From: Antedon mediterranea
Taxonomy: Eukaryota; Echinodermata; Crinoidea; Comatulida; Antedonidae
Reading direction: 5' to 3'
Length of the DNA stretch: 64,000 bases
Assembly (NCBI RefSeq): GCF_964355755.1
Contig: NC_092670.1
Location: forward strand, 8,245,201-8,309,200
Positions 7,820 to 64,000 of this stretch are shown in pieces; the stretch's first letter is position 1, and every line of letters starts with the position of its first letter. Below the pieces are notes generated by a model that was not told where the DNA came from, searched no databases, and worked only from the letters and a program-made list of their open reading frames with translations. The position numbers and the translations under genes were made by a program.

Positions 7820-8896
7820 ATATCGCAAAAATAATAGCAGTTTGTACAGTAGGTCAGTGGTGTAGGAAAGAGTGGTATCGCACAAAATAATAGCAGTTTG
7901 TACAGTAGGTCAGTGGTGTAGGAAAGAGTGGTATCGCACAAAATAATAGCAGTTTGTACAGTAGGTCAGTGGTGTAGGAAAGAGTGGTATCGCACAAAAT
8001 AATAGCAGTTTGTACAGTAGGTCAGTGGTGTAGGAAAGAGTGGTATCGCACAAAATAATAGCATTTTGTACAGTAGGTCAGTGGTGTAGGAAAGAGTGGT
8101 ATCGCACAAAATAATAGCATTTTGTACAGTAGGTCAGTGGTGTAGGAAAGAGTGGTATCGCACAAAATAATAGCATTTTGTACAGTAGGTCAGTGGTGTA
8201 GGAAAGAGTGGTATCGCACAAAATAATAGCAGTTTGTACAGTAGGTCAGTGGTGTAGGAAAGAGTGGTATCGCACAAAATAATAGCAGTTTGTACAGTAG
8301 GTCAGTGGTGTAGGAAAGAGTGGTATCGCACAAAATAATAGCAGTTTGTACAGTAGGTCAGTGGTCTAGGAAAGAGTGATATCGCACAAAATAATAGCAG
8401 TTTGTACAGTAGGTCAGTGGTGTAGGAAAGAGTGGTATCGCACAAAATAATAGCAGTTTGTACAGTAGGTCAGTGGTGTAGGAAAGAGTGGTATCGCACA
8501 AAATAATAGCAGTTTGTACAGTAGGTCAGTGGTGTAGGAAAGAGTGGTATCGCACAAAATAATAGCAGTTTGTACAGTAGGTCAGTGGTGTAGGAAAGAG
8601 TGGTATCGCACAAAATAATAGCAGTTTGTACAGTAGGTCAGTGGTGTAGGAAAGAGTGGTATCGCACAAAATAATAGCAGTTTGTACAGTAGGTCAGTGG
8701 TGTAGGAAAGAGTGGTATCGCACAAAATAATAGCAGTTTGTACAGTAGGTCAGTGGTGTAGGAAAGAGTGGTATCGCACAAAATAATAGCAGTTTGTACA
8801 GTAGGTCAGTGGTGTAGGAAAGAGTGGTATCGCACAAAATAATAGCAGTTTGTACAGTAGGTCAGTGGTGTAGGAAAGAGTGGTATCGCACAAAAT
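7820..8896. repeat. 56-bp minisatellite, 19 units
   Basis: The word GTAGGTCAGTGGTGTAGG recurs every 56 bp from 7849 to 8857. Each unit also contains ATCGCACAAAATAATAGC. Variants include three consecutive units with GCATTTTGTAC and one with GTGGTCTAGG. The array in unit 2 (42598-44066) has 26 units and accounts for most of the shift in spacing between units here. No spacers, so not a CRISPR-like array; no coding potential. Confidence 0.95.
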
Positions 8897-13218: not shown

Positions 13219-15300
13219 ATGGAGTTCAAATGTGAACACTGTGGAGATAAATTTGAGTTAAGTGATTTGAAGGAGCATTTAGGAATACATGTCCGTTTTA
13301 AAGAGTTAAAATGTGAAAACACAAACGATGTTGAACCACAAGATGAGACACCCTATGAGAAAGAAGGTGAGAATTTTGAAATAAACACTGCCATAGAAAC
13401 TTCATATAAATGTGAACATTGTGAGAAGCAATTTGAACAAAAAGAAGATTTGAAACAACATTTGCAAATACACAGAGAAGAGAAACCATATGAATGTGAA
13501 CAATGTAATAAAAGATTTAAACAGAATGCTAATTTCAAAAAACATTTGAGAATTCACACAGGAGAAACACCATATGAATGTGAACATTGTAGGAAGAAAT
13601 TTAAAGAAAGGGGGAATTTGAATAAACATTTGAGAGTACACACAGGAGAGAAACCATATGAATGTGAACATTGTGGAAAGAAATTTAGCTGCAGTCAGAA
13701 TTTGAAAAAACATTTGAGAGTACACACAGGAGAAACACCATATGAATGTGAACATTGTGGGAAGAAATTTGCACAAAGCGGGGAAATGAAAGTTCATGTC
13801 AGAATTCACACAGGAGAAAAACCATATGAATGTGAACAATGTGGGAAGAAATTCGGAGCTAGTGGTTCTTTAAAAAAACATCTGAGAGTACATAGTGGAG
13901 AAAAACCATTTGAATGTAAATATTGTTCAAAGAAATTTAGCTCAAAAAAATATTTAATAGTACACACACGGTTACACACAGGAGAGCAACTATATGAATG
14001 TGAATATTGTGGGAAGAAAATTAACAATAAAGACAACTGGAGAAAACATGTGATGCTACACACAGGAGAGAGACCATATGAATGTGAGCATTGTGGAAAG
14101 AAATTTAGAGGTAATAGAAATTTAAAATTACATTTAAGAATTCACACTGGAGAGAAACCATTTGAATGTGAATATTGTGGGAAGAAATTTAACGATAAAG
14201 GACAATGGAAAAAACATGTGATGCTACACACAGGAGAGAGACCATATGGATGTGAGCATTGTGGAAAGAAATTTAGAGGCAATAAAAATTTAAAATTGCA
14301 TTTGAGAATTCACACTGGAGAGAAACCATTTGAATGTGAACATTGTGGTAAGAAATTCCAATATCGGGAGACCTTCAAAAAACATTTGAGAATACACACA
14401 GGAGAAACACCTTATGAATGTGAACATTGTGGGATGAAATTTAAAGGAGGAAATCAATTGGAAATACATTTGAGAATTCACAATACAATAGCGCCACCAT
14501 CGCATAATTTGGAACAGAACAAAGGTAATGTAAATTTAAAATCACCGTTGAAAATACTCAGAGCGACACCATCTGGATCTTATGGATGTGAACAAAAATG
14601 TATAAATAATTTTATAGCACACAAGAGAGAGACAGAATCTAAATGTGAACATTGTGGAATAAAATTCAAAACTATTGAATATTTAAAATCGCATTTGAGA
14701 ATACACATAAAAAAGGAAATACCGTCTTATGAATGTGAACAGAAATGTATAACTAATTTTATAACATACAAGAAAGAGACACCATATGAAATGGATTGGA
14801 AAGAAGAGACACCATATGGAATGGAACATAAAAGAGAGACACCATATGGAAAGAAACATAAAGAGAAGACACCATATGGAATGGAACATAAAGAAAATAG
14901 TACACCACATGAAATAGAACATAAAGGAGATATACCATATGAAATGGAACATAAAGGAGAGACACCATATGAAATGGAACATAAAGGAGATATACCATAT
15001 GAAATGGAACATAAAGGAGATATACCATATGAAATGGAACATAAAGGAGATATACCATATGAAATGGAATATAAAGGAGATATACCATATGAAATGGAAC
15101 ATAAAGGAGAGACACCATATGAAATGGAATATAAAGGAGAGATACCATATGAATTTGAACATACAGGAGACACATCATATGGAATGGAACATTTAATACA
15201 CAGAACACAGATACCATATGAAATGGAACAATTAATAGGCATAGGCCTACACACAGGAGAAACACCATATGAGATGGGAACATTGTGGGATCGAATTTAA
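13219..15300 (+). CDS. ZNF-C1: intact 14-finger C2H2 protein with 10-residue repeat tail
   Basis: A 693-residue protein, presumably a nuclear DNA-binding regulator. An in-frame TTG at 13207 precedes it, but the first ATG is 13219, directly behind AACATCAG|C. Order: N-terminal module (residues 1-34), acidic spacer, thirteen canonical C2H2 fingers up to about residue 415, a Pro/Ser-rich break, a collapsed finger (CEQKCINNF), one more full finger, another collapsed finger, then about 14 copies of the decamer (D/E)(I/T)PYEMEHKG to the C-terminus. The decamer is a finger linker ([10 protein letters not shown]) whose Cys has become Met. Helices are varied ([30 protein letters not shown]), and fingers 8-9 and 10-11 are an internal two-finger duplication. 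No stops or frameshifts. The unit-2 copy differs by in-frame changes only, suggesting this is the functional member. Confidence 0.9.
14760..15200 (+). repeat. 30-bp coding repeat in ZNF-C1 tail
   Basis: Repeats of GAAATGGAACATAAAGGAGA and (T/C)ACCATAT, 30 bp each, encode 10 residues. The upstream units are more diverged (YGMEHKR, YGKKHKE) and the central ones nearly identical, indicating recent amplification from the middle. Confidence 0.9.
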
Positions 15301-17565: not shown

Positions 17566-19734
17566 TAGATGACAAATTTCGTTTTTGTAAAAGCACAAGT
17601 TAACGGAGTACTTACTCGAACGTTTCGATCTCTATCAGAGATCCTTCTCAACTGACTGCGGAGTGTTAATGCAGCTTGGTCATTCTTGACGTCATCTGTT
17701 GATGACGTTGTACGCCTCCGGTTGTAGGTTGGAGGTTGTGCGGGGCTCGGCCAGGTGATGTGTCTATCAAATCATTGTACAAATGCGAGAGTTCGTGGGC
17801 TCCAGTGTCCCGGTTCATGGTCTTCTCTTTATTTCTCCTTATATGTAATGATTCTCTAATCTGTCTGTCTTTGCGTTTAGGCTCTTTGGTTAAGATGGTA
17901 GCCTCCCAGTTCGGTACATGATTGTGTTTTATGACATGTTCTGTAATGGCAGATTTGTGTATGATCGAAGATGTGGATGTTCTGGAGGCCCTAGTCATTA
18001 CTCCCCCCGTGTTTGTTGTAACATCTTTTTTGTGATCATTAATTCGTGTTTGTAATGCCCTCCCTGTTTCCCCAATGTAAACTTGTGGACAGTTGCGGCA
18101 GGTGACTTCGTAGATTACTCCACATGTATCCATCTTCTCGATTTTATCTTTTGGGTGGACGAGGCTATTCTTGATTTTATTTTGGGGTAGGAAATAGGTT
18201 CCGACATTGTGATAGGAGAGAGTGCGTCGTATTCTTTCTGCCATTCCTTTTACATAGGGGATTCCTATGCTACCTCGCATCTTGATCTTTTCCTTCTGTG
18301 GTTCGTGTCCTTTGTTCTTTTTTCTTTTTCGGTTTTCCATAACTCTCTGGAAGGACCACTCTGGATACTGGCAGTTGTGTAACGCTTTCTTGATGTTATC
18401 CATCTCAACTTTCCTCAAATCCATATCTCCCACTACCTTCTCAGCTCTGTCCACAAGCGTGTTTATAAGCCCCAGTTTGTGTTCGAGTGGATGATGTGAG
18501 TTGAAATGTAAATATTGGTCTGTGTGAGTGGGCTTCCGATAGACTGAGGTGGTAACTGTTCCATTGTCATTGAGTGTGATGAGCATGTCCAGGAAAGGTA
18601 TTGTGTTGTTTGTCATCGATTCTGTGGTGAACTTTATATTGTCAGTTATATCGATGTTATTAAGATGTGTGTTAAATGTATGTACTGTACCTATGGGGAT
18701 GATAGCTAATACATCATCAACGTATCGTTTCCAATACACAGGCTTGATGTTAGTGGGTGCCGTGTTTATGGCTTGATGTTCGAGCCACTCTAGATACAAG
18801 TTCGCCAATATAGGACTTATTGGGCTTCCCATAGCAATGCCTTGTATTTGCCTATAAATGTTACCATTGAACGAGAAATAGGTTTTGTTCACAATTAAAC
18901 CGAGCAGCTCCATTATGTCTGTCACATCTAGTTTAGTTCTATCCAGAAGTGTCGGATCTGTTGTTAGGCGATTTTCGACCACTTTGAGGGCCTCTTCTAC
19001 TGGTGTTTTTGTAAACAGAGATACTACGTCAAACGAGACAAATGTTTCACTTGGTTTGACTATTATTTCTTTTAGTTCACTCGCCAACTCTCCTGAGTAA
19101 GTTACATGATGTTCTGTGTTTCCGACAAGCGGACCCAGGATTTTGGTGAGGAATTGTGCAACGGTGTAAAAAACGGTGTTGATGTTATCTACTATAGGTC
19201 TTAATGGCCAATTTGGTTTATGTATCTTCGGAAGACAATACAACCTAGGTACAATTTCAGCCGTGGGAAACAGCCATTCTTTCTCTCTGTAGTTGATTTT
19301 CTTTTCTTTGAACAACCTGCCTATGATGTTGACCACTTTTCGTTTATAGTTTTGTGTTGGATTACGTTTTAGCAGTTCGTAAACATTAGTGTCGCTCACC
19401 ATGGTTCCCACTTTATCTTTGTAATCATTAGTATTTAGGATGACAGTAGATCTACCTTTATCCGCTGGGAGAATAAGAATAGATTTATCTTTCTTCAAGT
19501 TGTTTATGGCCTTTCGTTCTTTGGGGGTTAAATTTGAAACAACCTACAACTGGAGGCGTACAACGTCATCAACAGATGACGTCAAGAATGACCAAGCTGC
19601 ATTAACACTCCGCAGTCAGTTGAGAAGGATCTCTGATAGAGATCGAAACGTTCGAGTAAGTACTCCGTTAACTTGTGCTTTTACAAAAACGAAATTTGTC
19701 ATCTATACAAAATCGAAGCTAAATGAAATTCTTT
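17566..19734 (-). mobile_element. Penelope-like retroelement with 168-bp inverted flanking repeats
   Basis: Flanked by an 11-bp direct duplication AAAATAATCTA (17555-17565 and 19735-19745). Near-perfect inverted repeats of 168 bp lie at 17564-17731 and 19540-19707, the inverted-PLTR arrangement known in Penelope-like elements. Between them is one minus-strand frame for reverse transcriptase plus GIY-YIG endonuclease. Absent from unit 2. The uninterrupted ORF and clear target duplication suggest a fairly recent insertion. Confidence 0.9.
17666..19498 (-). CDS. PLE reverse transcriptase / GIY-YIG endonuclease
   Basis: A 610-residue open frame that would copy element RNA at a nick made by its own endonuclease. 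Reverse transcriptase motifs: ILPADKG near the N-terminus, YCLPKIHKP, FVSFDVVSLF with catalytic Asp, GIAMGSPISPILANL, and the active-site box KRYVDDVLAI. The C-terminal GIY-YIG domain reads CGVIYEVTC then VYIGETGR with following Arg and His. The first codon at 19498 is TTG; the frame stays open upstream to about 19545 without an ATG (LTPKERKAINN precedes it), so the true start is unclear: upstream exon, non-AUG start or 5' truncation. No stops or frameshifts inside. Confidence 0.9.
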   Translation of the reverse strand: MKKDKSILILPADKGRSTVILNTNDYKDKVGTMVSDTNVYELLKRNPTQNYKRKVVNIIGRLFKEKKINYREKEWLFPTAEIVPRLYCLPKIHKPNWPLRPIVDNINTVFYTVAQFLTKILGPLVGNTEHHVTYSGELASELKEIIVKPSETFVSFDVVSLFTKTPVEEALKVVENRLTTDPTLLDRTKLDVTDIMELLGLIVNKTYFSFNGNIYRQIQGIAMGSPISPILANLYLEWLEHQAINTAPTNIKPVYWKRYVDDVLAIIPIGTVHTFNTHLNNIDITDNIKFTTESMTNNTIPFLDMLITLNDNGTVTTSVYRKPTHTDQYLHFNSHHPLEHKLGLINTLVDRAEKVVGDMDLRKVEMDNIKKALHNCQYPEWSFQRVMENRKRKKNKGHEPQKEKIKMRGSIGIPYVKGMAERIRRTLSYHNVGTYFLPQNKIKNSLVHPKDKIEKMDTCGVIYEVTCRNCPQVYIGETGRALQTRINDHKKDVTTNTGGVMTRASRTSTSSIIHKSAITEHVIKHNHVPNWEATILTKEPKRKDRQIRESLHIRRNKEKTMNRDTGAHELSHLYNDLIDTSPGRAPHNLQPTTGGVQRHQQMTSRMTKLH

Positions 19735-25554: not shown

Positions 25555-27882
25555 TCATTTCTCGCTTGAGCATGACTCAAGAACTGCAGTACCATAATTA
25601 AAAGTAGGAGGTGCTATACGATTATAATATTTCTGAAAAGTTTCCTCCTTAGCCCAACCAGCTGACTTCATGATGTTGTTTAGATCAACATTTTTATTTA
25701 GAAGATGAGAAGCTGAGACTGATCTGGTACTGGGGCTTATATTGGACTGTATCTATACCCAGGGATGTCACCGCGCTGGTCGGCCCCGATCAGCACTCAA
25801 CATTTCCGACCAGGATTTACAGGCTGCCGACCACCACTATTATTTATTAATCATTTACGATATTTATATTAGGCCTAGGCCTAACTAAAATTCGTACTAA
25901 AACATTTTACCTAGCACATCGTTAATAACAGACAAGCTAGCCTCATATAGATAAGACAAAAGACTACAGCAAATGTTTCCGTACGTTACTTTATTTGTAA
26001 CACAATACCAGGCCTACCCTGCCCTGGTATTCATTGTTACAGCTTGTGAGTCATGGCGAACAACGTGCTACACAGCACAGTGTACAACTACAAGTTTAAA
26101 GTTCACATAGCGACCATTCAAGCGTTTTATTTTGCACAGATTAAAAATACAAACAAGTACGCAGTAATTAAAAATGTACAACTACATAGACCCAAACAAA
26201 ATCATTTTTAATTGCTGAATGTTTTGTCACCCTGCTTTAATTATATTATGTTACTAGTTTTACATTTTTGTACTCTACGAACTATTAAAAAAAATTAAAA
26301 AACATGCGCATGGTTCAGTGAGACCGGGCAAGTTCGTTCGTTTATGATCGCCGAGCATGGTACAATAATTACACGTCCCTGGGATAACTTCAGGTTGCTG
26401 AACTTCAGTTAACCCATAAACACGTGTCTGTTCTTGCCGGCCATGCACTACATGCTTGCCGCACAGTTGTGAAACAAAAAATCCGGAATTCGCTAATACG
26501 CTAAAAAACTCTCGCGCAAAAGAACACGAACATTATATCGAGCAACAAGTAGTAAGGTCTAGGCTAATAATTTATCTACAGTATTTGATTAGGGATTAGG
26601 CCTAAATAAGGAAGCGCCTGTTTTTGTGGAATTCAGATTTTGGGGCATCTATCTAAGCCTTGGCTAGGCCTAGTGGTCGTAGTGTCTACAAGGCTAGGCC
26701 TAAGCCTGACGCGATCTATTGCTATTCATTTCGTAAGCGTTTTTTTGTTTTCGCGAATAATAACGGCGACTCCCCGGTGGTACAAGGTTAGGCCTAGACC
26801 TGACGCAATTTGTTGTTATTTATTTTCATAATTCTTTATGTTTCGCTAAAAAATTTTCCGACCGGCACTCCAAAAAGCTGGTGACATCCCTGTATACCTG
26901 CATTACACATGAATTTCTTTACCCAGTGGGACACTGTATCCTTTGAAATCGGCTTATGTGGGGAAATGTAACTTAACAGTAGCTGTGCCTTATCCTGGCG
27001 AAAAACACTTGTACGTGAAAGATATTCTGTCAACAAAAACACAATGCATAATTTTTTGTCAGATGGAAACGCATTGAATTCCAATGGCTTTTGATGTGAG
27101 CCAACCCGTGTATGCTTTAATTTTTCAGTTACATAGAAAACAATTTTATGATCACTCTTTTCCATATTTGCAATCGAGAGATTTAATATCGTCTGGCACC
27201 TTTGACCACTTAAAAGACACAATAAGAACGCCAATCTTTGTGATATTTCTTTCAGCGATGATTCTTGGATTGATGGTTGCCCTCTGATGTAATCTAGGGC
27301 AACATTGACATTCCAACTGTACCTTAGTAAAGATGGTCTTAATTCAAAAATACCCTTCATAAAGCGTTTCACAATAGGTAATTGACCAAAAGATGCATAC
27401 TCTTGACCTACAGCAAAAAGAGAAGACAGCATACTTCTAGCAGTATTAATAGAACTGTACGATAAACCTGAATTAAACATATCTGATAAAAACTCAAGTG
27501 GTAATGTCACATGTGGTGAAATAATGTCACAATTTTTTCTCTCACAAAATTCAAACCATCTGTTAGCCATAGTTTGATATTGAACCTTTGTTCCTGCTCG
27601 CCACGATGCTAGTATGATCTCTATTGTGCCTGAGGTAAATCCCTTTGATAATAAGCTTCTCCTGATACATGACATATGAGCAGTCGTAGTTTCTTGTGTA
27701 GAGGATGAGTCAAGCCCGGTTGTGCTGGCATCACCAGAAGGTCTGGTGCCGGTTGAATTTGTGTTGCTTCCTTGAGTATCCCCAGCAGCATGGGGTACCA
27801 CGATTGGGATGGCCAATCTGGTACTACTAGAATTCCCTGCGCCTTGTCTTGTATTATTTTCTGTATAACCCTGAGAACACAA
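25555..27882 (-). pseudogene. DIRS tyrosine recombinase, interrupted
   Basis: This enzyme would integrate the circular cDNA. The frame starts at 27882, overlapping the RT frame by 262 bp. It shows a core-binding region (WRAGTKVQYQTMANRWFEFC), then the catalytic domain beginning LAFLLCLLSGQR with the first catalytic Arg. After CNAGI the gene is split by a TIR element (25760-26892), so the open frame ends in element sequence at 26836. The C-terminus resumes at 25753 in a different frame: STRSVSAS carries the second catalytic Arg, and SAGWAKEETFQKYY the nucleophilic Tyr, ending with TGA at 25555-25557. The frame difference near AAGCCCCAGTACC removes the His expected two residues before the Arg. 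Non-functional. Confidence 0.85.
25760..26892. mobile_element. Nonautonomous TIR element inside the recombinase gene
   Basis: The ends CAGGGATGTCACC and GGTGACATCCCTG are perfect 13-bp inverted repeats, with further similarity inward (CTGGTCGG against CCGACCGG). TATACC directly repeats on both sides (25754-25759 and 26893-26898), a 6-bp duplication. The CAGGG end is hAT-like, but hAT elements make 8 bp, so the superfamily is unresolved. About 1.13 kb with no transposase. Rich in TAGGCCTA words. Confidence 0.8.
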
Positions 27883-29453
27883 TTAAAAGGGGGAAAGCAA
27901 TAGAATAATATATTTTGCCATGATATAGTAAATGCATCAATATCTGTTGCATATGGATCTTGCCTGTAAGAGATGTATTTATCAAATTGTTTATTTAGTC
28001 TTGATGCAAATAAATCAATTGTGGGTAGAACATTAAGTTTCGTTAGAACCTCACATAAAGTTTTAGAATTTAGCATCCATTCTGTATCTATATTCTGTCT
28101 TCGAGATTCAAAATCAGCAGTAACATTAAGCACTCCTGGTATGTGGGCTGCAGTAATCCAAATATTATTACTTTCACAAAATGCCCAAATTGTCCGTGTA
28201 ATATGATCATTACAAGGATCACTGTGACATGTTCCCATATTATTTATAATGGAAACAGCAGTAGTATTGTCAATCATGAGCTTTACCTGTTTACCTAGAA
28301 CTTGTTTGGAAAAGGATGTCAGGCCAAAATATGCAGCTAATAGCTCTAAATAATTTATATGGTATTTTCTCTCATTTACTGTCCAATGACCACCTGTAGC
28401 GGCTTCACCCATTGCTGCCCCCCAACCAGAAAGAGAGGCGTCTGTGTAAATAGTTAAATCAGTTGCTAAATGTCCAATTACATTAAAACATTGTGGTAGG
28501 TTTATCAGCCACCATTGTAGATCCTCAATAGCCGAGGATGACAAACACATTTTAGAGTCGAAATTTCCTCTGGCTGTCTTTAAAGCATTAATCTTATCCC
28601 TCTCCACTGCCCGATAATGGCATTTACCATATTGTACAGCAGGGAAGCTTGACACGATATACCCAATAATCTGTGCTATCTTTCGAATTGTTGGAGTAGG
28701 TGTTGCCAATATCCTGGTAATACAGTTAGTAAGTCGATCAATTTTTGGACTTGTCAAAGTAATTTTCATATTACCTGAATTAATATTAAAACCTAAGAAT
28801 GTGATACTTTGTGTAGGTATAAAAACTGATTTTTCAGGATGTATGACAAAACCTAAACTATCAAACATCTTTATTGTTTCCATAATAGTATCAACGCATC
28901 TCTTGTATGTGGATCCTATTAATAGTAAATCATCAATATAGGCACATAAAATATGTCCTCTCGACTTTCTCAGAAAACTAAGTGGTGGTTTTAATAGTTT
29001 GGTGAATGTTCGTGGGCAAAAGGAAAGACCATTTGGATATGCTGTAAATTTATAAAGTTCTCCCTGATAGTGAAATTTTAGATACTTCTGAGAATCCTTG
29101 TGTATTCCCACACTATAATATGCATCCTTTTTAAAGTCAATAGAGGCCATCCAACAATTCTTCATTATCATACTTCATGCGGTATTGATTGTGTCCATTT
29201 TAAAGTGTTTATATTCAATATATTTGTTTAGTGATTTTAAATTTAAGATTATGCGTACCCTATTATCTTTCTTAGGAACTGAAAAAATTGGAGATACATA
29301 TTCCCCTGGTTCATATGCACATTTAACCAGTACACGTTTAGTTAACAGTGTCTGTATTTCATGTTCTACTAAGTTGATGTGATTCTTTGCAATAAAATTT
29401 GATGGACATGTAATGGTTGGTGGTGGAGGACTTAAAAATTGTATATATTTCAC
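27621..29453 (-). pseudogene. DIRS reverse transcriptase / RNase H
   Basis: Two open stretches in one frame (29453-29175 and 29171-27621) are separated by a single TGA at 29175-29177. RT motifs: VSPIFSVPKKDNRVR, then SIDFKKDAYYSV, AYPNGLSFCPRTF and the active-site box AYIDDLLLIG. RNase H: IYTDASLSGWGAAMG, YLELLAAYFG, LMIDNTTAVS and HIPGVLNVTADFESR. The C-terminal part (TIDLFASRLN, FPPFNCVLRV, PDWPSQSWYP) lies where DIRS elements carry a methyltransferase-like region. The N-terminal piece 29715-29359 is in another frame, so one indel near 29450 also breaks the gene. Confidence 0.9.
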
Positions 29454-31059: not shown

Positions 31060-33029
31060 CTAATAATTAATAGTAATAAATGGTTTTGGTTATAATTATT
31101 GACTTGTAAAATATATTCGTAAGTCTTTTGCTAAATGAATGTCGATTTAAATTGAATAGTCTCTTTCTATTAAGGCTTGACTAGGCCTGTAGTAAAAAAT
31201 CGTAGTGTTAGTATGCCCAGCAAAAAAAAAAGTGGGAGGGCAAGCAAAACCCTGATCCCCCTGAGCCTATACCGGACTATATAATAAGTATTTATATCAG
31301 CCTTATTATATATATATATAGTAAATTAAAGAACTACAACATCGTTTTAGTCATATGGTACACTACCACCCATCTTTGAGTGAATATTCCTGGAGTTGAA
31401 TCCTTTGTTATAAAAAAAAATGCATACCGTTCACAAATTTAATATTAAAACAATCCATTTGTTTAAATGTTTTTGTTAAAATAAGTGGTACAGTAATTGG
31501 AAATATAACAAACATAATAAAGTAAAGAAAAAGAGTAATCAAAATTATAAATAGAGAAAATATACTCGTTTTTTGAATTGAACTCGTCACGGTGACGAGT
31601 TAGGCTATCCCGCAATGCATCGTAACATACAGATGCTATATATTAGGCTTAACCTACAGTAAGCTGCACCACAACTATTGTTGAAACAGCATAGCATCGA
31701 TCAAAATCGTTCAACAAGCGTCAACAGTTGACTGTATTGGCATTGTAGACGGTTTAGTTGACGGTTAGTTTTTATTTTACACCGCTCACATTTATTTAAT
31801 TGTTTGAATATGATGAAATTTTCAAATTAAAAATAAAGTTAATGTGTCTGAAGGAGAATGTTTTAAGTAATAACGTTATTGAAAATTGGAAGGAAATTGA
31901 TAACGTGTATGCGATATGCGCTCTATTGAATGTGACGAACTGTGTCGAAAGAGAAAAAATTCCTATATTTTACATTTGTGTGGCCATATGCCCGTGTGTC
32001 ATTATTTTTTCATTCATAATTCATCAAATATGAAAGAAATATATCATAAAACTATAAAAAAACAATATTCAAGCACAAAAACGGGCTTTCTATGCTGCGT
32101 ACGGGCTAAGTGCGCCAAAGCGTGCGCGGAACGCACATCTGAAATGCTTAAAATGTCCTGAAACGTGTAGAAAGTTGATTAGAAATTGATTTTGAGCATT
32201 TTTAACTTTCAAAGCGTGCTTACGCACAAAAATACCAATGTTGAAAATTTTGCTGATGATACAGGAAGATGACCCTTGACATGAAGCATACATGTGTCAA
32301 GTGGTATTTAAAAATATTTATTGGTTTTCAATTTATAGTCAATCTACGCGAAAATATTTTCATTAAACCAAAGTTTCTTGCACAACTACATATATACGCG
32401 CATCTGCTGGCAAACTTACAACATAACTGCTACCGCCGTATTTTAGATCTGCATGCAACAAAAAATGAGCAAAAAAATTGAAATTTTTGACAATAACAAT
32501 AGATAGCGATAGCCTAATAAAAATAATAGAAATCAATTTTAGAAAAGAAAACTTTAAGTTTAAATTTTGCATATTAATTGTATTTTGGAATGAAGTTATT
32601 GACATATTTTTAAAGTTTAAAGTAATATAAGTGCATTCTAGCTTTTAGATGAACGATAAGTAAAAAGGTTTGTTGCCTTGAAAACAATTCCAGGTGGGGA
32701 AAACTAAATCGTATTCTAATAGTATTAAAAGTCAATTTTTACTTCACAAGCTGCATCTATTTCAGCTTCGGTTACAGTACCTGCTTTTGCTGTCTGGAAT
32801 AATAATACAGTACTGTATTTAGTAATGTATTATTATAAATAATTTGTAAACTATGGAAGTTTTCTTCCATAGTTATTTATAATTTTTTTAGCCTACAAAA
32901 GTTTCATTCTTTTTGCCTTTTTAGTTGTTTTTTATGGATATATTATCTTTAAACAAATCAGTGAAAACAATTCTCAAACCATGAATAGTCTATTATTATT
33001 AGTTAATTTAACAACATATTTTCTTTCAG
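31060..33029. other. Region upstream of ZNF-A2
   Basis: No gene supported. Matches 61504-63413 at about 95% or better by eye. Features are a perfect 21-nt palindrome centred on CACGGTG (31581-31601), a GTTGAC/GTCAAC cluster at 31705-31770, and an AT dinucleotide run near 31308. A ZNF-A 5' exon should lie here, but no copy of the CCAAT promoter motif used by B, C and D was found. Confidence 0.5.
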
Positions 33030-33044
33030 ATTACAGAATACAGC

Positions 33045-36000
33045 ATGAAATATAAATGTGAACACTGTGGAGTTAAGTTGGAATTCAGTGACTTGAAAGA
33101 ACATTTAGGATTACACACTCATTCTAAAGAAATAAAATGTGAGCTCTGTGAACATACAATTGACAAGTGTAAGTTACATAACCAGACACCATATGAATGT
33201 GATCATGAGGAGGAAGGAAATCGGAATTTGAAAAAACATTTGAGGACAAACACAGGAGAGACACCATATGAATGTGAGCATGAGAGGGAAGGAAATCGGA
33301 ATTTGAAAAAACATTTGAGGACAAACACAGGTGAGACACCATATGAATGTGAGCATGAGAAGGAAGGAAATCGAAATTTGAACAAACATTTGAGGACAAA
33401 CACAGGTGAGACACCATATGAATGTGAGCATGGGAAAGAAGGAAATCGGAATTTGAAAAAACATTTGAGCACAAACACAGGAGAAACACCATATGAATGT
33501 GAGCATGAGAAGGAAGGAAATCGGAATTTGAAAAAACATTTGAGCACAAACACAGGAGAAACACCATATGAATGTGAGCATGAGAAGGAAGGAAATCGGA
33601 ATTTGAAAAAACATTTGAGCACAAACACAGGAGAGACACCATATGAATGTGAGCATGAGAAGGAAGGAAATAGGAATTTGAAAAAACATTTGAGCACAAA
33701 CACAGGAGAGACACCATATGAATGTGAGCATGAGAAAGTAGGAAATCAGAATTTGAAAAAACATTTGAGCACAAACACAGGAGAGACACCATATGAATGT
33801 GAGCATGAGAAAGAAGGAAATCGGAATTTGAAAAAACATTTGAGAACAAACACAGCAGAGACACCATATGAATGTGAGCATGAGAAGGAAGGAAATAGGA
33901 ATTTGAAAAAACATTTGAGCACAAACACAGGAGAGACACCATATGAATGTGAGCATGAGAAAGTAGGAAATCAGAATTTGAAAAAACATTTGAGCACAAA
34001 CACAGGAGAGACACCATATGAATGTGAGCATGAGAAAGAAGGAAATCGGAATTTGAAAAAACATTTGAGAACAAACACAGCAGAGACACCATATGAATGT
34101 GAGCATGAGAAGGAAGGAAATCGAAATTTGAACAAACATTTGAGCACAAACACAGAAGAGACACCATATGAATGTGAGCATGAGAAGGAAGGAAATAGGA
34201 ATTTGAAAAAACATTTGAGCACAAACACAGGAGAGACACCATATGAATGTGAGCATGAGAAAGTAGGAAATCAGAATTTGAAAAAACATTTGAGCACAAA
34301 CACAGGAGAGACACCATATGAATGTGAGCATGGGAAAGAAGGAAATCGGAATTTGAAAAAACATTTGAGAACAAACACAGGAGAAACACCATATGAATGT
34401 GAGCATGAGAAGGAAGGAAATCGAAATTTGAACAAACATTTGAGGACAAACACAGGTGAGACACCATATGAATGTGAGCATAAGAAGGAAGGAAATTGGA
34501 ATTTGAACAAGCATTTGAGGACAAACAAAGGAAAGACACCATATGAATGTGAGCATGAGAAGGAAGGAAATCAGAATTTGAAAAAACATTTGAGGACAAA
34601 CACAGGAGAGACACCATATGAATGTGGGCATGAGAAGGAAGGAAATCGGAATTTGAAAAAACATTTGAGCACAAACGCAGGAGAGACACCATATGAATGT
34701 GAACATTGCGGGAAGAAATTCAAATGGAAGTCAACTTTTAAAACACATTTGAGAACACACAAAAGAGAGACACCATATGAATGTCAAAATTGTGGAAAGA
34801 AATTTAAACAAAGCTGGAATAGGAAAATGCATTTGAGAAAACACACAAGAGAGACACAATATGAATGTGAACATTGTGGTAAGAAATTTAAACAAAATGG
34901 AAATTTAAAGATTCGTTTGAGAAAACACACAGGAGAGACACCATATGAATGTGAAAAAGAGAAGGAAGGAAATCTGAATTTAAAAAAACATTTGAGCACA
35001 AACACAGGAGAGACACCATATGAATGTGAGCATGAGAAGGAAGGAAATCTGAATTTGAAAAAACATTTGAGCACAAACACAGGAGAGACACCATATGAAT
35101 GTGAACATTGCGGGAAGAAATTCAAATGGAAGTCAACTTTGAAAGCACATTTGAGAACACACAAAACAGAGACACCATATGAATGTCAAAATTGTGCGAA
35201 GAAATTTAAGCAAAGCTGGAATTTGAAAATGCATTTGAGAAAACACACAAGAAAGACACAATATCAACGTGAACATTGTGGTAAGAAATTTAAACAAAAT
35301 GGAAATTTAGAGATTCGTTTGAGAAAATACACAGGAGAGACACCATATGATTGTGAACATGGTGGTTGGAAATTGAAACAAAATGGAAATCGGAAACATT
35401 TGAGAAAACACACAGGAGAGACACCATATGAATGTGAACATTGTGGAAAGAAATTTAAACTAAATGGAAATTTGAAGATACATTTGAGAATACACACAGG
35501 AAAGACACCATATGAATGTGAACATTGTGGTAAGAAATTTAAACAAAGTGGTGATTTGAAAAGACATTTGAGAACACACACAGGAGATACACCATATGAA
35601 TGTGAACATTGTGGTAAGAAATTTAAACTCAATGGAAATTTGAAAAGACATTTGAGAATACACACAGGAGATACACCTTATGAATGTGAACATTGTGGGA
35701 AGAAATTTAAACTAAGCTGGAATTTGAAAATGCATTTGAGAACACACACAGGAGAGACACCATATGAATGTGAACATTGTGGTAAAAAATGTAAACACAA
35801 TGAGGACTTGAAAAGACATTTGAGAATACACACAGGAGAGGCACCATATGAATGTGAACATTGTGGTAAGAAATTCAAACAAAATGGGGATTTGAAAAGA
35901 CATTTTAGAATACACACAAGAGAGACACCATATGAATGTGAACATTGTGGTAAGAAATTTAAACAAAATGGAAATTTGAAAATGCATTTGAGAACACACA

Positions 36001-36776
36001 CAGGAGAGACTCCATATGAATGTCAACATTGTGGACAGAAATTTAAACAAAATGGAAATTTGAAAATGCATTTAAGAACACACACAGGAGAGACACCATA
36101 TGAATGTGAACATTGTGGTAAGAAATGTAAACACAATGGGGACTTGAAAAGACATTTGAGAATACACACAGGAGAGGCACGATATGAATGTGCACATTGT
36201 GGTAAGAAATTTAAACTAAATGGAAATTTCAAGATTCATTTGAGAACACACACAGGAGAGACACCATATGAATGTGAACATTGTGGACAGAAATTTAAAC
36301 AAAATGGAAATTTGAAGATACATTTGAGAACACACACTAGAGACGCACCATATGAATGTGAACATTGTGGTAAGAAATTTAAACAAAATGGAAATTTAAA
36401 GATGCATTTGAGAACACACACAGGAGAGGCACCATATGAATGTGCACATTGTGGTAAGAAATTTAAACACAATGAGGACTTGAAAAGACATTTGAGAATA
36501 CACACAGGAGAGGCACCATATGAATGTGAACATTGTGGTAAGAAATTTAAACAAAATGGGGTTTTGAAAAGACATTTGAGAACACACACAAGAAAGGCAT
36601 CATATGAATGTGAACATTGTGGTAAGAAATTTAAACAAAATGGGGTTTTGAAAAGACATTTGAGAACACACACAAGAAAGGCATCATATGAATGTGAACA
36701 TTGTGGAACGAAATTTACACGGAATGCTACTTTGAATGCACATTTAAAAACACATAACACACCTTATGAAATTTAA
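33045..36776 (+). CDS. ZNF-A2: giant zinc-finger protein with 22 zinc-less finger repeats
   Basis: 1243 residues, uninterrupted. The ATG follows acceptor TTTTCTTTCAG (AG 33028-33029). Residues 1-47: family N-terminal module. Residues 48-547: twenty tandem 25-residue units, consensus [19 protein letters not shown] then STNTGE; the second Cys is Glu and the last His is Asn, and three residues are lost relative to a 28-residue finger, so canonical zinc binding is impossible. Then three fingers, two more 25-residue units, three fingers resembling the first three (a block duplication), and seventeen further fingers. Fingers with KIRLRKH, YQREHC and DCEHGG have lost ligands; about twenty remain canonical. 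Helices are uniform ([27 protein letters not shown]). The absence of any stop in 3.7 kb of repeats argues for recent amplification or selection. Confidence 0.88.
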   Translation: MKYKCEHCGVKLEFSDLKEHLGLHTHSKEIKCELCEHTIDKCKLHNQTPYECDHEEEGNRNLKKHLRTNTGETPYECEHEREGNRNLKKHLRTNTGETPYECEHEKEGNRNLNKHLRTNTGETPYECEHGKEGNRNLKKHLSTNTGETPYECEHEKEGNRNLKKHLSTNTGETPYECEHEKEGNRNLKKHLSTNTGETPYECEHEKEGNRNLKKHLSTNTGETPYECEHEKVGNQNLKKHLSTNTGETPYECEHEKEGNRNLKKHLRTNTAETPYECEHEKEGNRNLKKHLSTNTGETPYECEHEKVGNQNLKKHLSTNTGETPYECEHEKEGNRNLKKHLRTNTAETPYECEHEKEGNRNLNKHLSTNTEETPYECEHEKEGNRNLKKHLSTNTGETPYECEHEKVGNQNLKKHLSTNTGETPYECEHGKEGNRNLKKHLRTNTGETPYECEHEKEGNRNLNKHLRTNTGETPYECEHKKEGNWNLNKHLRTNKGKTPYECEHEKEGNQNLKKHLRTNTGETPYECGHEKEGNRNLKKHLSTNAGETPYECEHCGKKFKWKSTFKTHLRTHKRETPYECQNCGKKFKQSWNRKMHLRKHTRETQYECEHCGKKFKQNGNLKIRLRKHTGETPYECEKEKEGNLNLKKHLSTNTGETPYECEHEKEGNLNLKKHLSTNTGETPYECEHCGKKFKWKSTLKAHLRTHKTETPYECQNCAKKFKQSWNLKMHLRKHTRKTQYQREHCGKKFKQNGNLEIRLRKYTGETPYDCEHGGWKLKQNGNRKHLRKHTGETPYECEHCGKKFKLNGNLKIHLRIHTGKTPYECEHCGKKFKQSGDLKRHLRTHTGDTPYECEHCGKKFKLNGNLKRHLRIHTGDTPYECEHCGKKFKLSWNLKMHLRTHTGETPYECEHCGKKCKHNEDLKRHLRIHTGEAPYECEHCGKKFKQNGDLKRHFRIHTRETPYECEHCGKKFKQNGNLKMHLRTHTGETPYECQHCGQKFKQNGNLKMHLRTHTGETPYECEHCGKKCKHNGDLKRHLRIHTGEARYECAHCGKKFKLNGNFKIHLRTHTGETPYECEHCGQKFKQNGNLKIHLRTHTRDAPYECEHCGKKFKQNGNLKMHLRTHTGEAPYECAHCGKKFKHNEDLKRHLRIHTGEAPYECEHCGKKFKQNGVLKRHLRTHTRKASYECEHCGKKFKQNGVLKRHLRTHTRKASYECEHCGTKFTRNATLNAHLKTHNTPYEI
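33186..34685 (+). repeat. 75-bp coding repeat array, 20 units, with 225-bp higher-order period
   Basis: Twenty units of exactly 75 bp. Variants KVGNQ, RTNTAE and STNTGE fall in a fixed order of three, repeated at units 7-9, 10-12 and 14-16, showing that three-unit blocks were copied. Two further units are at 34938-35087. A1 has one unit, A3 at least five full ones before the window ends. Confidence 0.95.
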
Positions 36777-37420
<644 letters not shown>

Positions 37421-37997
37421 ACCCAGAAACTGATATTTCGGCCCAAGTTAAAAAATGTGCCCAAATATGGTAGTGATATGACATGTCCATAAATGGGTCA
37501 CAATTTTTTTGTCTCATAAATTTTGATAGCGTAGACAGCTTTAGAGCAACAAAAAAATATAAATTTTGTGGGAAAATATTTGTACTTTTGAACACACAGT
37601 GGTGATTTGAAGGAACATTTTAGAAAACAAACAAGAGATACACTACATTATTATAAATGTGAACATTGTGCGAAGAAATTTAAAGTGATAATTTGAAAAG
37701 ACATGTGAGAATTCACATGAGAGAGAATTAATAGGTTAAGTTTGAATATTTTTTGGGGAAAATCAACAGAAATATTTATTTCAGATAAATGAGTTACTAT
37801 AATGCAGTACTCAATAATTTGAGCCATAATAATTGAAGAATATAATTATGTAGATTACTGTATTCCCTGATACAAAAAACTAATACATAGAAGTTTTTAA
37901 AGAGTTTTAAGATTTAATATTATAAAACAATGTCAATCAAGCAAATCAAACAAAATAGATAATAATAAACCATTCCAAAGTGAGAATTTAAAAAAAA
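37421..37997. other. 3' flank of ZNF-A2
   Basis: Contains scattered finger fossils (AACATTGTGCGAAGAAATTT at about 37660) and CCAAATATGGTAGTGATATG. No gene. Confidence 0.5.
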
Positions 37998-38605
37998 AAC
38001 ATTTTAGAACTCGCACAATGAATCTGAATATTGTGAGAATAAAAAAAACATTTTAGAACTCGCACAATGAATCTGAATATTGTGAGAATAAAAAAAAACA
38101 TTTTAGAACTCGTACAATGAATCTGAATATTGTGAGAATAAAAAAAAACATTTTAGAACTCGCACAATGAATCTGAATATTGTGAGAATAAAAAAAACAT
38201 TTTAGAACTCGCACAATGAATCTGAATATTGTGAGATAAAAAAAAACATTTTAGAACTCGCACAATGAATCTGAATATTGTGAGAATAAAAAAAACATTT
38301 TAGAACTCGCACAATGAATCTGAATATTGTGAGAATAAAAAAACATTTTAGAACTCGCACAATGAATCTGAATATTGTGAGAATAAAAAAAAACATTTTA
38401 GAACTCGCACAATGAATCTGAATATTGTGAGAATAAAAAAAAACATTTTAGAACTCGCACAATGAATCTGAATATTGTGAGAATAAAAAAAACATTTTAG
38501 AACTCGCACAATGAATCTGAATATTGTGAGAATAAAAAAAAACATTTTAGAACTCGCACAATGAATCTGAATATTGTGAGAATAAAAAAAACATTTAAAA
38601 ATATA
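37998..38605. repeat. 49-bp satellite derived from zinc-finger DNA, 12 units
   Basis: CATTTTAGAACTCGCACAAT plus GAATCTGAATATTGTGAGAA and an A-run of variable length recur about every 49 bp (first at 38000, last at 38543). The words correspond to a finger's KHFRTHT and NESEYCEN segments, but unit length is not a multiple of three and A-runs vary, so nothing is translated. Unit 1 has a single copy at about 3570-3620. Confidence 0.9.
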
Positions 38606-42597: not shown

Positions 42598-44066
42598 ATA
42601 TCGCAAAAATAATAGCAGTTTGTACAGTAGGTCAGTGGTGTAGGAAAGAGTGGTATCGCACAAAATAATAGCAGTTTGTACAGTAGGTCAGTGGTGTAGG
42701 AAAGAGTGGTATCGCACAAAATAAAAGCAGTTTGTACAGTAGGTCAGTGGTGTAGGAAAGAGTGGTATCGCACAAAATAATAGCAGTTTGTACAGTAGGT
42801 CAGTGGTGTAGGAAAGAGTGGTATCGCACAAAATAATAGCAGTTTGTACAGTAGGTCAGTGGTGTAGGAAAGAGTGGTATCGCACAAAATAATAGCATTT
42901 TGTACAGTAGGTCAGTGGTGTAGGAAAGAGTGGTATCGCACAAAATAATAGCAGTTTGTACAGTAGGTCAGTGGTGTAGGAAAGAGTGGTATCGCACAAA
43001 ATAAAAGCAGTTTGTACAGTAGGTCAGTGGTGTAGGAAAGAGTGGTATCGCACAAAATAATAGCAGTTTGTACAGTAGGTCAGTGGTGTAGGAAAGAGTG
43101 GTATCGCACAAAATAATAGCAGTTTGTACAGTAGGTCAGTGGTGTAGGAAAGAGTGGTATCGCACAAAATAATAGCAGTTTGTACAGTAGGTCAGTGGTG
43201 TAGGAAAGAGTGGTATCGCACAAAATAATAGCAGTTTGTACAGTAGGTCAGTGGTGTAGGAAAGAGTGGTATCGCACAAAATAATAGCATTTTGTACAGT
43301 AGGTCAGTGGTGTAGGAAAGAGTGGTATCGCACAAAATAATAGCAGTTTGTACAGTAGGTCAGTGGTGTAGGAAAGAGTGGTATCGCACAAAATAATAGC
43401 AGTTTGTACAGTAGGTCAGTGGTGTAGGAAAGAGTGGTATCGCACAAAATAATAGCAGTTTGTACAGTAGGTCAGTGGTGTAGGAAAGAGTGATATCGCA
43501 CAAAATAATAGCAGTTTGTACAGTAGGTCAGTGGTGTAGGAAAGAGTGGTATCGCACAAAATAATAGCAGTTTGTACAGTAGGTCAGTGGTGTAGGAAAG
43601 AGTGGTATCGCACAAAATAATAGCAGTTTGTACAGTAGGTCAGTGGTGTAGGAAAGAGTGGTATCGCACAAAATAATAGCAGTTTGTACAGTAGGTCAGT
43701 GGTGTAGGAAAGAGTGGTATCGCACAAAATAATAGCAGTTTGTACAGTAGGTCAGTGGTGTAGGAAAGAGTGGTATCGCACAAAATAATAGCAGTTTGTA
43801 CAGTAGGTCAGTGGTGTAGGAAAGAGTGGTATCGCACAAAATAATAGCAGTTTGTACAGTAGGTCAGTGGTGTAGGAAAGAGTGGTATCGCACAAAATAA
43901 TAGCAGTTTGTACAGTAGGTCAGTGGTGTAGGAAAGAGTGGTATCGCACAAAATAATAGCAGTTTGTACAGTAGGTCAGTGGTGTAGGAAAGAGTGGTAT
44001 CGCACAAAATAATAGCAGTTTGTACAGTAGGTCAGTGGTGTAGGAAAGAGTGGTATCGCACAAAAT
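42598..44066. repeat. 56-bp minisatellite, 26 units
   Basis: GTAGGTCAGTGG recurs from 42627 to 44027 at exact 56-bp steps: seven more units than in unit 1. Variants ATAAAAGC (two units) and GCATTTTG (two units) occur at repeated spacing, suggesting that a multi-unit block was copied. Confidence 0.95.
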
Positions 44067-48391: not shown

Positions 48392-50503
48392 ATGGAGTTC
48401 AAATGTGAACACTGTGGAGATAAATTTGAGTTAAGTGATTTGAAGGAGCATTTAGGAATACATGTCCGTTTTAAAGAGTTAAAATGTGAAAACACAAACG
48501 ATGTTGAACCACAAGATGAGACACCCTATGAGAAAGAAGGTGAGAATTTTGAAATAAACACTGCCATAGAAACTTCATATAAATGTGAACATTGTGAGAA
48601 GCAATTTGAACAAAAAGAAGATTTGAAACAACATTTGCAAATACACAGAGAAGAGAAACCATATGAATGTGAACAATGTAATAAAAGATTTAAACAGAAT
48701 GCGAATTTCAAAAAACATTTGAGAATTCACACAGGAGAAACACCATATGAATGTGAACATTGTAGGAAGAAATTTAAAGAAAGGGGGAATTTGAATAAAC
48801 ATTTGAGAGTACACACAGGAGAGAAACCATATGAATGTGAACATTGTGGAAAGAAATTTAGCTGCAGTCAGAATTTGAAAAAACATTTGAGAGTACACAC
48901 AGGAGAAACACCATATGAATGTGAACATTGTGGGAGGAAATTTGCACAAAGCGGGGAAATGAAAGTTCATGTCAGAATTCACACAGGAGAAAAACCATAT
49001 GAATGTGAACAATGTGGGAAGAAATTCGGAGCTAGTGGTTCTTTAAAAAAACATCTGAGAGTACATAGTGGAGAAAAACCATTTGAATGTAAATATTGTT
49101 CAAAGAAATTTAGCTCAAAAAAATATTTAATAGTACACACACGGTTACACACAGGAGAGCAACTATATGAATGTGAATATTGTGGGAAGAAAATTAACAA
49201 TAAAGACAACTGGCGAAAACATGTGATGCTACACACAGGAGAGAGACCATATGAATGTGAGCATTGTGGAAAGAAATTTAGAGGTAATAGAAATTTAAAA
49301 TTACATTTAAAAATTCACACTGGAGAGAAACCATTTGAATGTGAATATTGTGGGAAGAAATTTAACGATAAAAGACAATGGAAAAAACATGTGATGCTAC
49401 ACACAGGAGAGAGACCATATGGATGTGAGCATTGTGGAAAGAAATTTAGAGGCAATAAAAATTTAAAATTGCATTTGAGAATTCACACTGGAGAGAAACC
49501 ATTTGAATGTGAACATTGTGGTAAGAAATTCCAATATCGGGAGACCTTCAAAAAACATTTGAGAATACACACAGGAGAAACACCTTATGAATGTGAACAT
49601 TGTGGGATGAAATTTAAAGGAGGAAATCAATTGGGAATACATTTGAGAATTCACAATACAATAGCGCCACCATCTCATAATTTGGAACAGAACAAAGGTA
49701 ATGTAAATGTAAAATCACCGTTGAAAATACTCAGAGCGACACCATCTGGATCTTATGGATGTGAACAAAAATGTATAAATAATTTTATAACACACAAGAG
49801 AGAGACAGAATCTAAATGTGAACATTGTGGAATAAAATTCGAAACTATTGAATATTTAAAATCGCATTTGAGAATACACATAAAAAAGGAAATACCGTCT
49901 TATGAATGTGAACAGAAATGTATAACTAATTTTATAACATACAAGAAGGAGACACCATATGAAATGGATTGTAAAGAAGAGACACCATATGGAATGGAAC
50001 ATAAAGAGAAGACACCATATGGACTGGAACATAAAGAAAATAGTACACCACATGAAATAAAACATAAAGGAGATATACCATATGAAATGGAACATAAAGG
50101 AGATACACCATATGAAATGGAACATAAAGGAGATATACCATATGAAATGGAACATAAAGGAGAGACACCATATGAAATGGAAAATAAAGGAGATATACCA
50201 TATGAAATGGAATATAAAGGAGATATACCATATGAAATGGAACATAAAGGAGAGACACCATATGAAATGGAAAATAAAGGAGATATACCATATGAAATGG
50301 AATATAAAGGAGAGACACCATATGAAATGGAAAATAAAGGAGATATACCATATGAAATGGAATATAAAGGAGATATACCATATGAAATGGAACATTTAAT
50401 ACACAGAACACAGATACCATATGAAATGGAACAATTAATAGGCATAGGCCTACACACAGGAGAAACACCATATGAGATGGGAACATTGTGGGATCGAATT
50501 TAA
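48392..50503 (+). CDS. ZNF-C2: intact 14-finger C2H2 protein with longer decamer tail
   Basis: 703 residues from ATG 48392 (an in-frame TTG at 48380 is not the start). Same layout as ZNF-C1. Differences are single replacements outside zinc ligands (GRKFAQSG for [14 protein letters not shown] for LHLRIH, NDKRQW for NDKGQW, NQLGIH for NQLEIH) and in-frame changes in the decamer tail, which gains EMENKG variants and one net unit (+30 bp). All fourteen finger ligand sets are preserved in both copies, the strongest sign of selection in the window. Confidence 0.9.
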   Translation: MEFKCEHCGDKFELSDLKEHLGIHVRFKELKCENTNDVEPQDETPYEKEGENFEINTAIETSYKCEHCEKQFEQKEDLKQHLQIHREEKPYECEQCNKRFKQNANFKKHLRIHTGETPYECEHCRKKFKERGNLNKHLRVHTGEKPYECEHCGKKFSCSQNLKKHLRVHTGETPYECEHCGRKFAQSGEMKVHVRIHTGEKPYECEQCGKKFGASGSLKKHLRVHSGEKPFECKYCSKKFSSKKYLIVHTRLHTGEQLYECEYCGKKINNKDNWRKHVMLHTGERPYECEHCGKKFRGNRNLKLHLKIHTGEKPFECEYCGKKFNDKRQWKKHVMLHTGERPYGCEHCGKKFRGNKNLKLHLRIHTGEKPFECEHCGKKFQYRETFKKHLRIHTGETPYECEHCGMKFKGGNQLGIHLRIHNTIAPPSHNLEQNKGNVNVKSPLKILRATPSGSYGCEQKCINNFITHKRETESKCEHCGIKFETIEYLKSHLRIHIKKEIPSYECEQKCITNFITYKKETPYEMDCKEETPYGMEHKEKTPYGLEHKENSTPHEIKHKGDIPYEMEHKGDTPYEMEHKGDIPYEMEHKGETPYEMENKGDIPYEMEYKGDIPYEMEHKGETPYEMENKGDIPYEMEYKGETPYEMENKGDIPYEMEYKGDIPYEMEHLIHRTQIPYEMEQLIGIGLHTGETPYEMGTLWDRI
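49945..50395 (+). repeat. 30-bp coding repeat in ZNF-C2 tail
   Basis: About 15 decamer units. A two- to three-unit block ([20 protein letters not shown]) is repeated three times here but absent in C1, showing independent turnover after duplication. Confidence 0.9.
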
Positions 50504-63428: not shown

Positions 63429-64000
63429 ATGAAATATAAATGTGAACACTGTGGAGTTAAGTTGGAATTCAGTGACTTGAAAGAGCATTTAGGATTATAC
63501 AATCATTCTAAAGAAATAAAATGTGAGCTCTGTGAAGATACAATTGACAAGTGTAAGCTACATAACCAGACACCATATGAATGTGATCATGAGGAGGAAG
63601 GAAATCGGAATTTGAAAAAACATTTGAGGACAAACACAGGAGAGACACCATATGAATGTGAGCATGAGAAGGAAGGAAATAGGAATTTGAAAAAACATTT
63701 GAGCACAAACATAGGAGAGACACCATATGAATGTGAGCATGAGAAGGAAGGAAATAGGAATTTGAAAAAACATTTGAGCACAAACACAGGAGAGACACCA
63801 TATGAATGTGAACATGAGAAGGAAGGAAATCGGAATTTGAAAAAACATTTGAGCACAAACATAGGAGAGACACCATATGAATGTGAGCATGAGAAGGAAG
63901 GAAATAGGAATTTGAAAAAACATTTGAGCACAAACACAGGAGAGACACCATATGAATGTGAGCATGAGAAGGAAGGAAATAGGAATTTGAAAAAACATTT
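63429..64000 (+). CDS. ZNF-A3: zinc-finger gene, cut by window end
   Basis: The ATG follows acceptor TTTTCTTTCAG (AG at 63412-63413). The open frame of 190 codons runs off the window. Residues 1-47: family module, but with Tyr in place of the second His (LGLYNH, where A1 and A2 have LGLH), so the N-terminal finger has lost a ligand. From residue 48 the 25-residue zinc-less units begin; five complete units plus a partial are visible. The STNIGE/STNTGE alternation gives a 150-bp two-unit period, unlike the 225-bp period of A2. No stops so far. Confidence 0.85.
   Translation, partial: MKYKCEHCGVKLEFSDLKEHLGLYNHSKEIKCELCEDTIDKCKLHNQTPYECDHEEEGNRNLKKHLRTNTGETPYECEHEKEGNRNLKKHLSTNIGETPYECEHEKEGNRNLKKHLSTNTGETPYECEHEKEGNRNLKKHLSTNIGETPYECEHEKEGNRNLKKHLSTNTGETPYECEHEKEGNRNLKKH

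Follow-up and report, generated by a model that had tools for sequence, protein, structure and literature searches.

Gene A2 carries 22 copies of a 25-residue unit which descends from a C2H2 zinc finger but is no longer one. It lies in the window analysed here, a stretch of 64,000 nucleotides (C1:8245201–8309200) from a 354-Mb assembly with 18 contigs. The 75-bp DNA unit sits in an open frame and occurs in 0–28 copies among paralogs, and by frame and copy number it can be classed as a predicted in-frame coding minisatellite. We consider it probable that this minisatellite arose from a decayed finger and is translated as a flexible, loosely constrained spacer, not as a new folded part of the protein.

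In total, we counted 172 zinc-less units in 14 loci: A1, A2 and 12 further loci (L001–L012, with L006 being the paralog A3). Thirteen of these loci belong to a cluster of fast-changing animal zinc-finger genes at 8.09–8.51 Mb on C1, and one is on C8. Exact matches of the unit motif number 99 in 354 Mb, all in C1:8.09–8.51 Mb or at C8:19.43 Mb, and across the whole genome none lies beyond the loci included in the count. Our similarity searches score part of their candidates (40 of 185 and 150 of 1355) and may therefore overlook units that lie elsewhere and have diverged strongly. When the 25-residue unit was looked for in viral contigs, it was not found.

The A2 open frame spans 33012–36776 on the forward strand (1254 codons), with its first ATG at 33045 and a TAA stop at 36774–36776. 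According to the ORF list and the comparison of loci, the coding exon from ATG to TAA is 33045–36776 (+), encoding 1243 amino acids. This start ATG is common to 15 of the 16 loci compared, and upstream of it is an acceptor-like TTTTCTTTCAG, found in 14 of the 16 loci examined (L004 has the one-base variant TTTTCTTACAG in its place). For L003 no anchor was obtained at the start, which makes its upstream alignment row spurious; the N-terminal alignment omitted this locus and used 15 of the 16 loci.

The exon, read along the forward strand, begins with the N-terminal finger of the family and a short spacer (33045–33185, from the comparison of loci), followed by 20 contiguous 25-residue zinc-less units of 75 bp each (33186–34685, from TRF and unit counts). 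Three 28-residue C2H2 fingers (34686–34937), the third of which has Arg for its first His, separate this block from two further units (34938–35087), and the remainder is a C-terminal C2H2 finger array in which some fingers are decayed (35088–36776). TRF places a 75-bp array at 33184–35108 with a score of 2872. The initial annotation, made from the DNA letters alone, had already reported 20 contiguous and two separate units, and this count stands. In L010, a comparable block made of fingers and units occurs twice.

With 21 finger matches, A2 is a tandem C2H2 ZNF gene (at least five fingers in one frame), and PF00096 matches its protein in 21 stretches (E 1.5e-101). None of the Pfam matches of the A2 coding exon is a KRAB, ZAD, BTB or FiNZ N-terminal effector domain. 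The N-terminal coding parts of A1 and A2 are 96.5% identical, compared with 79% for their upstream DNA, so this part appears to be conserved or else homogenised by conversion.

The unit has lost two of the four zinc ligands. At the place of the second Cys, 160 of the 172 units have Glu and the others Gly (7), Lys (3), Arg (1) or Ala (1), with Cys in none; at the place of the second His there is Asn (163), Lys (8) or Thr (1). The C2H2 spacing C-x2-4-C-x12-H-x3-5-H is thus absent, all 172 units being without the second Cys and the second His. Much else is kept: the first Cys (Cys5) in 169 units, the first His (His18) in 167, His7 in 160, Thr1 in 171 and both Gly11 and Leu15 in 170. The core Phe is absent from the unit consensus (the core Leu is present in 170 of 172). 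Compared with the 28-residue finger of A2's own protein, the unit is 9 nt shorter. It is hydrophilic and of mixed charge, with five acidic and four basic residues in each unit. The initial annotation had described a finger whose second Cys is replaced with Glu or similar, whose last His is replaced with Asn and which has dropped three residues while keeping its linker and helix/His region; this observation is confirmed.

Descent from a finger is visible in the linker (TGE-x-PY) and helix (NLKxHL), in the DNA alignment to the finger consensus and in Pfam. The linker-spanning model zf-H2C2_2 (PF13465) matches the array in 18 stretches (E 6e-38), but the matches listed at E≤10 for these 20 units do not include zf-C2H2 (PF00096); the unit is therefore a finger descendant and a finger no longer. 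Among solved structures, the 60 of 123 matches listed are all ordinary or designed zinc-finger proteins, the best of these being 2i13 (E 1.6e-24). Finger descent is also what L015 points to, a more distant relative on C5 which has an intact finger at the homologous position. The unit consensus aligns to a finger in 21 equally scored ways, so several deletion paths are possible. Over 298 fingers of these loci, the pattern seen most often pairs a gap of 6 nt with one of 3 nt, both near the second Cys and the Phe codon, and in at least 186 of the 298 first-listed DNA alignments of unit and finger, a gap touches the Phe codon.

Copy number varies greatly between paralogs: one unit in A1, 22 in A2, 23 in L001, one in L002, two in L003, ten in L004, 18 in L005, 14 in A3 (L006), one in L007, nine in L008, 28 in L009, 21 in L010, 17 in L011 and five in L012 on C8, where one of the five is an out-of-frame remnant. 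The longest contiguous block is in L009 (23 units, 1.7 kb). Two of these paralogs are in the window together with A2. A1 (1554–2126, +) has the same N-terminus as A2, exactly one unit (1695–1772, with a 3-nt insertion) and then fingers until a stop. A3 begins at 63429 and runs to the window's end at 64000 (+), which includes five whole units and part of a sixth, and it continues in L006, where the frame shifts by 1 nt directly after the array. The copy numbers first given for A1 (1) and A2 (22) were correct, and the 'at least 5' given for A3 becomes 14 in all.

The unit is missing from two sister paralogs, L013 and L014, whose open frames run to 700 and 592 amino acids. In both, the spacer leads directly into the finger which comes after the array in L004, L006, L008 and L011. 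These six loci also share an odd finger (TPYENCGMKFKQNLKILLRKYTGE or near it), which is shortened and without the usual C-x2-C; it is the second finger after the array, or the second after the spacer where the array is absent.

A1, L002 and L007 have exactly one unit, each at the same position, and the array starts with the unit type DHEEEGN in all nine C1 loci that have at least nine units. Because the losses are shared by all 172 units, single units exist in those three loci and the first type is common, the simplest order is decay, then amplification and lastly duplication of the genes, accompanied by more gains and losses of units. This fits the earlier proposal that the defective finger itself was amplified, which is borne out by the identical losses in 172 of 172 units, the single units and the intact finger of L015. 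Turnover is fast, and copy number changes faster than the flanking DNA: A2 and L010 differ at only 2 of 330 upstream sites, with first blocks of 20 and 15 units, respectively. More distant relatives share the N-terminal finger and have different spacers. By eye, several other distant relatives have short finger remnants at the position of the unit, some ending in NTGET or NTEEA, and these may be an older decay of the same finger.

Whether the array is coding cannot be read from the length of its frame. The initial annotation noted that the frame is kept over 1.5 kb; it is indeed open, but this is not evidence by itself because a period that is a multiple of 3 keeps any stop-free frame open. 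The consensus unit is stop-free in the sense frame and in all three antisense frames, and antisense frames of 531 and 518 amino acids span the same A2 array. We therefore rejected the long open frame as coding evidence and used a comparison of stops instead.

That comparison used 169 of the 172 units, dropping L001 at 879, L007 at 700 and the out-of-frame remnant of L012. Among the resulting 77 unit haplotypes, the sense frame has no stop and the three antisense frames have 10, 15 and 4 (Fisher P=0.0014, 3e-5 and 0.12, the third not significant, and all overstating the evidence because haplotypes are related, not independent). When distinct variants are counted instead, 3.5 sense stops would be expected and 0 of 70 have one, compared with 3 of 70 in every antisense frame. 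Approximately 150 inferred changes would be expected to produce 5–10 stops (kappa 4 to 1), whereas none was observed, and all 172 counted units are free of sense stops. Since the sense frame has no stops while equally open antisense frames carry them, the array is probably translated, now or until recently. Seven of the nine C1 loci with at least nine units have a single open frame through array and fingers (891–1684 amino acids). In the other two the frame is shifted, within the array in L001 and immediately behind it in L006, so some loci may be dead genes or carry assembly errors.

Substitutions between units suggest that their residues are constrained weakly, if at all, with replacement change near neutral. 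A minimum spanning tree of the haplotypes has 109.8 replacement and 40.2 silent changes. Omega between units is 0.63, 0.82 and 1.03 at kappa 1, 2 and 4 (170 of 172 units, two rows with less than 16/25 identity, L001 at 879 and L007 at 700, having been dropped). On distinct variants, which have 39 transitions and 40 transversions, it is 0.62–0.91 at kappa 1–3 (169 of 172 units, the out-of-frame remnant of L012 also dropped). The initial annotation had proposed dN/dS as a check, with a value near 1 counting against a new module. At 0.63–1.03 (kappa 1–4), omega approaches this value, but the test has little power because the zinc ligands of canonical fingers in the same genes also look unconstrained by the same count (omega 0.93 at kappa 1, 1.47 at kappa 2). 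Its positive control having failed, we rejected dN/dS as a decisive test.

AF2 gave a mean pLDDT of 41.2 for eight units (with an alignment of 13 rows, taken as sliding windows along that array) and of 44.4 for a single sequence containing four units, three canonical fingers and most of another unit. The canonical control fingers in the second model failed too, so AF2 is uninformative here and we conclude nothing from it on the fold; nothing else in the analysis pointed to a folded module. By the charge-hydropathy rule the unit falls among disordered sequences, but so does the canonical finger, i.e., the rule does not separate them.

The explanation we favour starts with a single decayed C2H2 finger, placed behind the conserved N-terminal finger and ahead of the finger array in one zinc-finger subfamily. 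This decayed finger became the unit of a 75-bp in-frame tandem repeat. Slippage or unequal exchange, helped by linker DNA that hardly varies from one unit to the next, would make the repeat grow and shrink in the way of ordinary finger arrays. The product of the repeat would be a hydrophilic, mixed-charge, probably unstructured tether linking the first finger to the finger array, with the length of the array and most of its residues under loose constraint. Selection against stops and frameshifts would mainly protect the finger array behind the units, because that array would otherwise be cut off.

Other explanations must be weighed against this one. It is possible, if somewhat unlikely, that these genes are mostly dead (recent pseudogenes or untranslated) and that the array is an ordinary minisatellite whose period is divisible by 3 by chance. 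This would suit the broken frames of L001, of L006 and, in its later part, of L012, the stops inside the finger arrays of A1, L002, L003 and L007, the decayed fingers within arrays and the 49-bp finger repeat which adjoins A2. It sits badly with 77 haplotypes that have no sense stop where the antisense frames have 4–15, with the long open frames (891–1684 amino acids) of seven of nine loci and with the 96.5% N-terminal coding identity of A1 and A2 compared with 79% upstream. The same absence of sense stops could instead indicate a selected new module, in which selection tunes the copy number of a unit that folds, forms oligomers or has a binding partner. Omega below 1 at kappa 1–2, a unit that is hydrophilic and regular, the constancy of the first type DHEEEGN in nine C1 loci with at least nine units and the two other finger-derived repeats made by the same cluster could be read in this way as well. 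However, replacements are close to neutral and paralogs have anything from 0 to 28 units, with L013 and L014 keeping open frames without any. We therefore consider such a module quite improbable, and the initial annotation's suggestion of a new folded, oligomerising or repeat-binding module is not supported.

We give little credence to the idea that the units still bind metal by pooling Cys5, His7 and His18 between neighbours. All three residues are well kept (169, 160 and 167 of 172 units), but Thr1, Gly11 and Leu15 are kept equally well or better (171, 170 and 170), neither the C2H2 spacing nor, in the consensus, the core Phe is left, and PF00096 does not appear in the array's match list at E≤10. 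An assembly artefact is hardly credible: although tandem repeats are prone to misassembly and two loci are frameshifted, the units occur in 14 separate loci, most with their own unit order, and the longest block (23 units, 1.7 kb, in L009) comes from an assembly that covers 354 Mb with 18 contigs.

The 25-residue unit is not the only finger-derived repeat here. A 10-residue repeat of a finger's start, TPYEMEHKG(E/D), with Met mostly at the place of the first ligand Cys, ends genes of a different type from A2. Located by TRF and unit count, it forms the tail of neighbour gene B1 (14779–15171, +, at least 12 units) and is also in neighbour gene B2 (49952–50404, +, at least 15 units). It was counted in seven genes of the cluster, with 11–26 units each; once 31 rows which were starts of canonical fingers are taken out, the units total at least 103. 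Cys occurs in 2 of the 103 units, and a sense stop in none of 33 haplotypes. One other open frame has stops in 6 of 33, but the antisense frames have few (1, 0 and 2), so the stop control says little for this repeat.

A 15-residue repeat of a finger's start is found at L040:398–1485 (C1:8029697–8030784), with 19 copies counted and 24.8 given by TRF. One Cys remains in it, though not where a zinc ligand would be, and the copies are nearly identical, the 19 units comprising three haplotypes. Downstream of A2, at 37991–38596 (+), TRF finds approximately 12 copies of a 49-bp tandem repeat of finger DNA without the linker and middle. Since this period cannot be divided by 3, amplification by itself does not point to selection. 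Because 10-residue, 15-residue and 49-bp finger repeats occur besides the 25-residue one, finger DNA here seems prone to tandem amplification in general, and we infer that the repeats surviving inside genes are the in-frame fraction of a general process. In L043 (C6:20342700–20343800), fingers are cut before the helix and followed at once by the next linker; they are not amplified in the stretch seen.

These repeats allow a bolder proposal, which we regard as rather unlikely: the cluster may repeatedly turn pieces of fingers into translated repeats without a zinc site (25, 10 and 15 residues, linker kept), the length of which is selected, quickly adjustable and sets the function of the finger array. 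If so, the selected length could act through tether length, self-association or nuclear condensation.

Several known systems resemble parts of this case. The PRDM9 finger minisatellite is in-frame and coding, and its copy number shifts by unequal exchange. The A2 array is likewise an in-frame coding minisatellite of varying copy number, for which we infer unequal exchange; PRDM9 units are working fingers selected for DNA contact, whereas the units here have no C2H2 site. The U-box is a zinc-less derivative of the RING finger whose fold is stable through other bonds. Both it and our unit are a zinc-binding fold minus its ligands, but the core Phe is also missing here.

Tandem ZNF clusters gain and lose 84-bp finger units. 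Lineage-specific growth of tandem C2H2 ZNF clusters (KRAB-ZNF in tetrapods, FZNF in fish) is well known (PMC10547256). The cluster described here is like them in its clustered duplicated genes, long finger arrays and surrounding mobile elements. Unlike them, it multiplies a zinc-less 75-bp unit instead of a finger, and its coding exon matched no effector domain and has a conserved N-terminal finger. Individual degenerate, non-functional fingers are also contained in ZNF proteins (PMC2865497). Our unit is similar to these in having lost at least one of four zinc ligands while still in the reading frame, but unlike the individual degenerate fingers described there, one defective finger is here the amplified unit, with identical losses in 172 copies. 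Among the open-licence papers listed, we recognised no description of a zinc-less finger amplified as a unit, which does not imply its absence from print.

Degenerate fingers in zinc-finger arrays are usually taken as passive debris, yet here one became a replicating unit that now accounts for 500 contiguous residues in a predicted protein, and two other finger fragments were treated similarly in this cluster. The case lends itself to studying how a new region, probably one that does not bind DNA, is made from a DNA-binding domain via deletion and tandem amplification. Natural paralogs with 0, 1, 9 and 28 copies allow comparison.

The surroundings of A2 contain other repeats and mobile elements. 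Copies of a 56-bp satellite (99% matches) are at 7821–8896 (19 copies) and 42599–44066 (26 copies), and this satellite and other repeats recur approximately 35 kb apart, which suggests a duplicated block. On the reverse strand, an open frame at 17669–19543 matches reverse transcriptase and, weakly (below the curated cut-off), GIY-YIG, and we take it to resemble Penelope elements. Also on the reverse strand, frames at 26839–29174 have reverse transcriptase, RNase H and an integrase of tyrosine-recombinase type, presumably resembling DIRS elements. Elsewhere in the genome, a homeodomain query found a homeobox gene cluster at C2:7.83–8.21 Mb (L048–L052 and L054–L059), the posterior members of which may be deuterostome-like.
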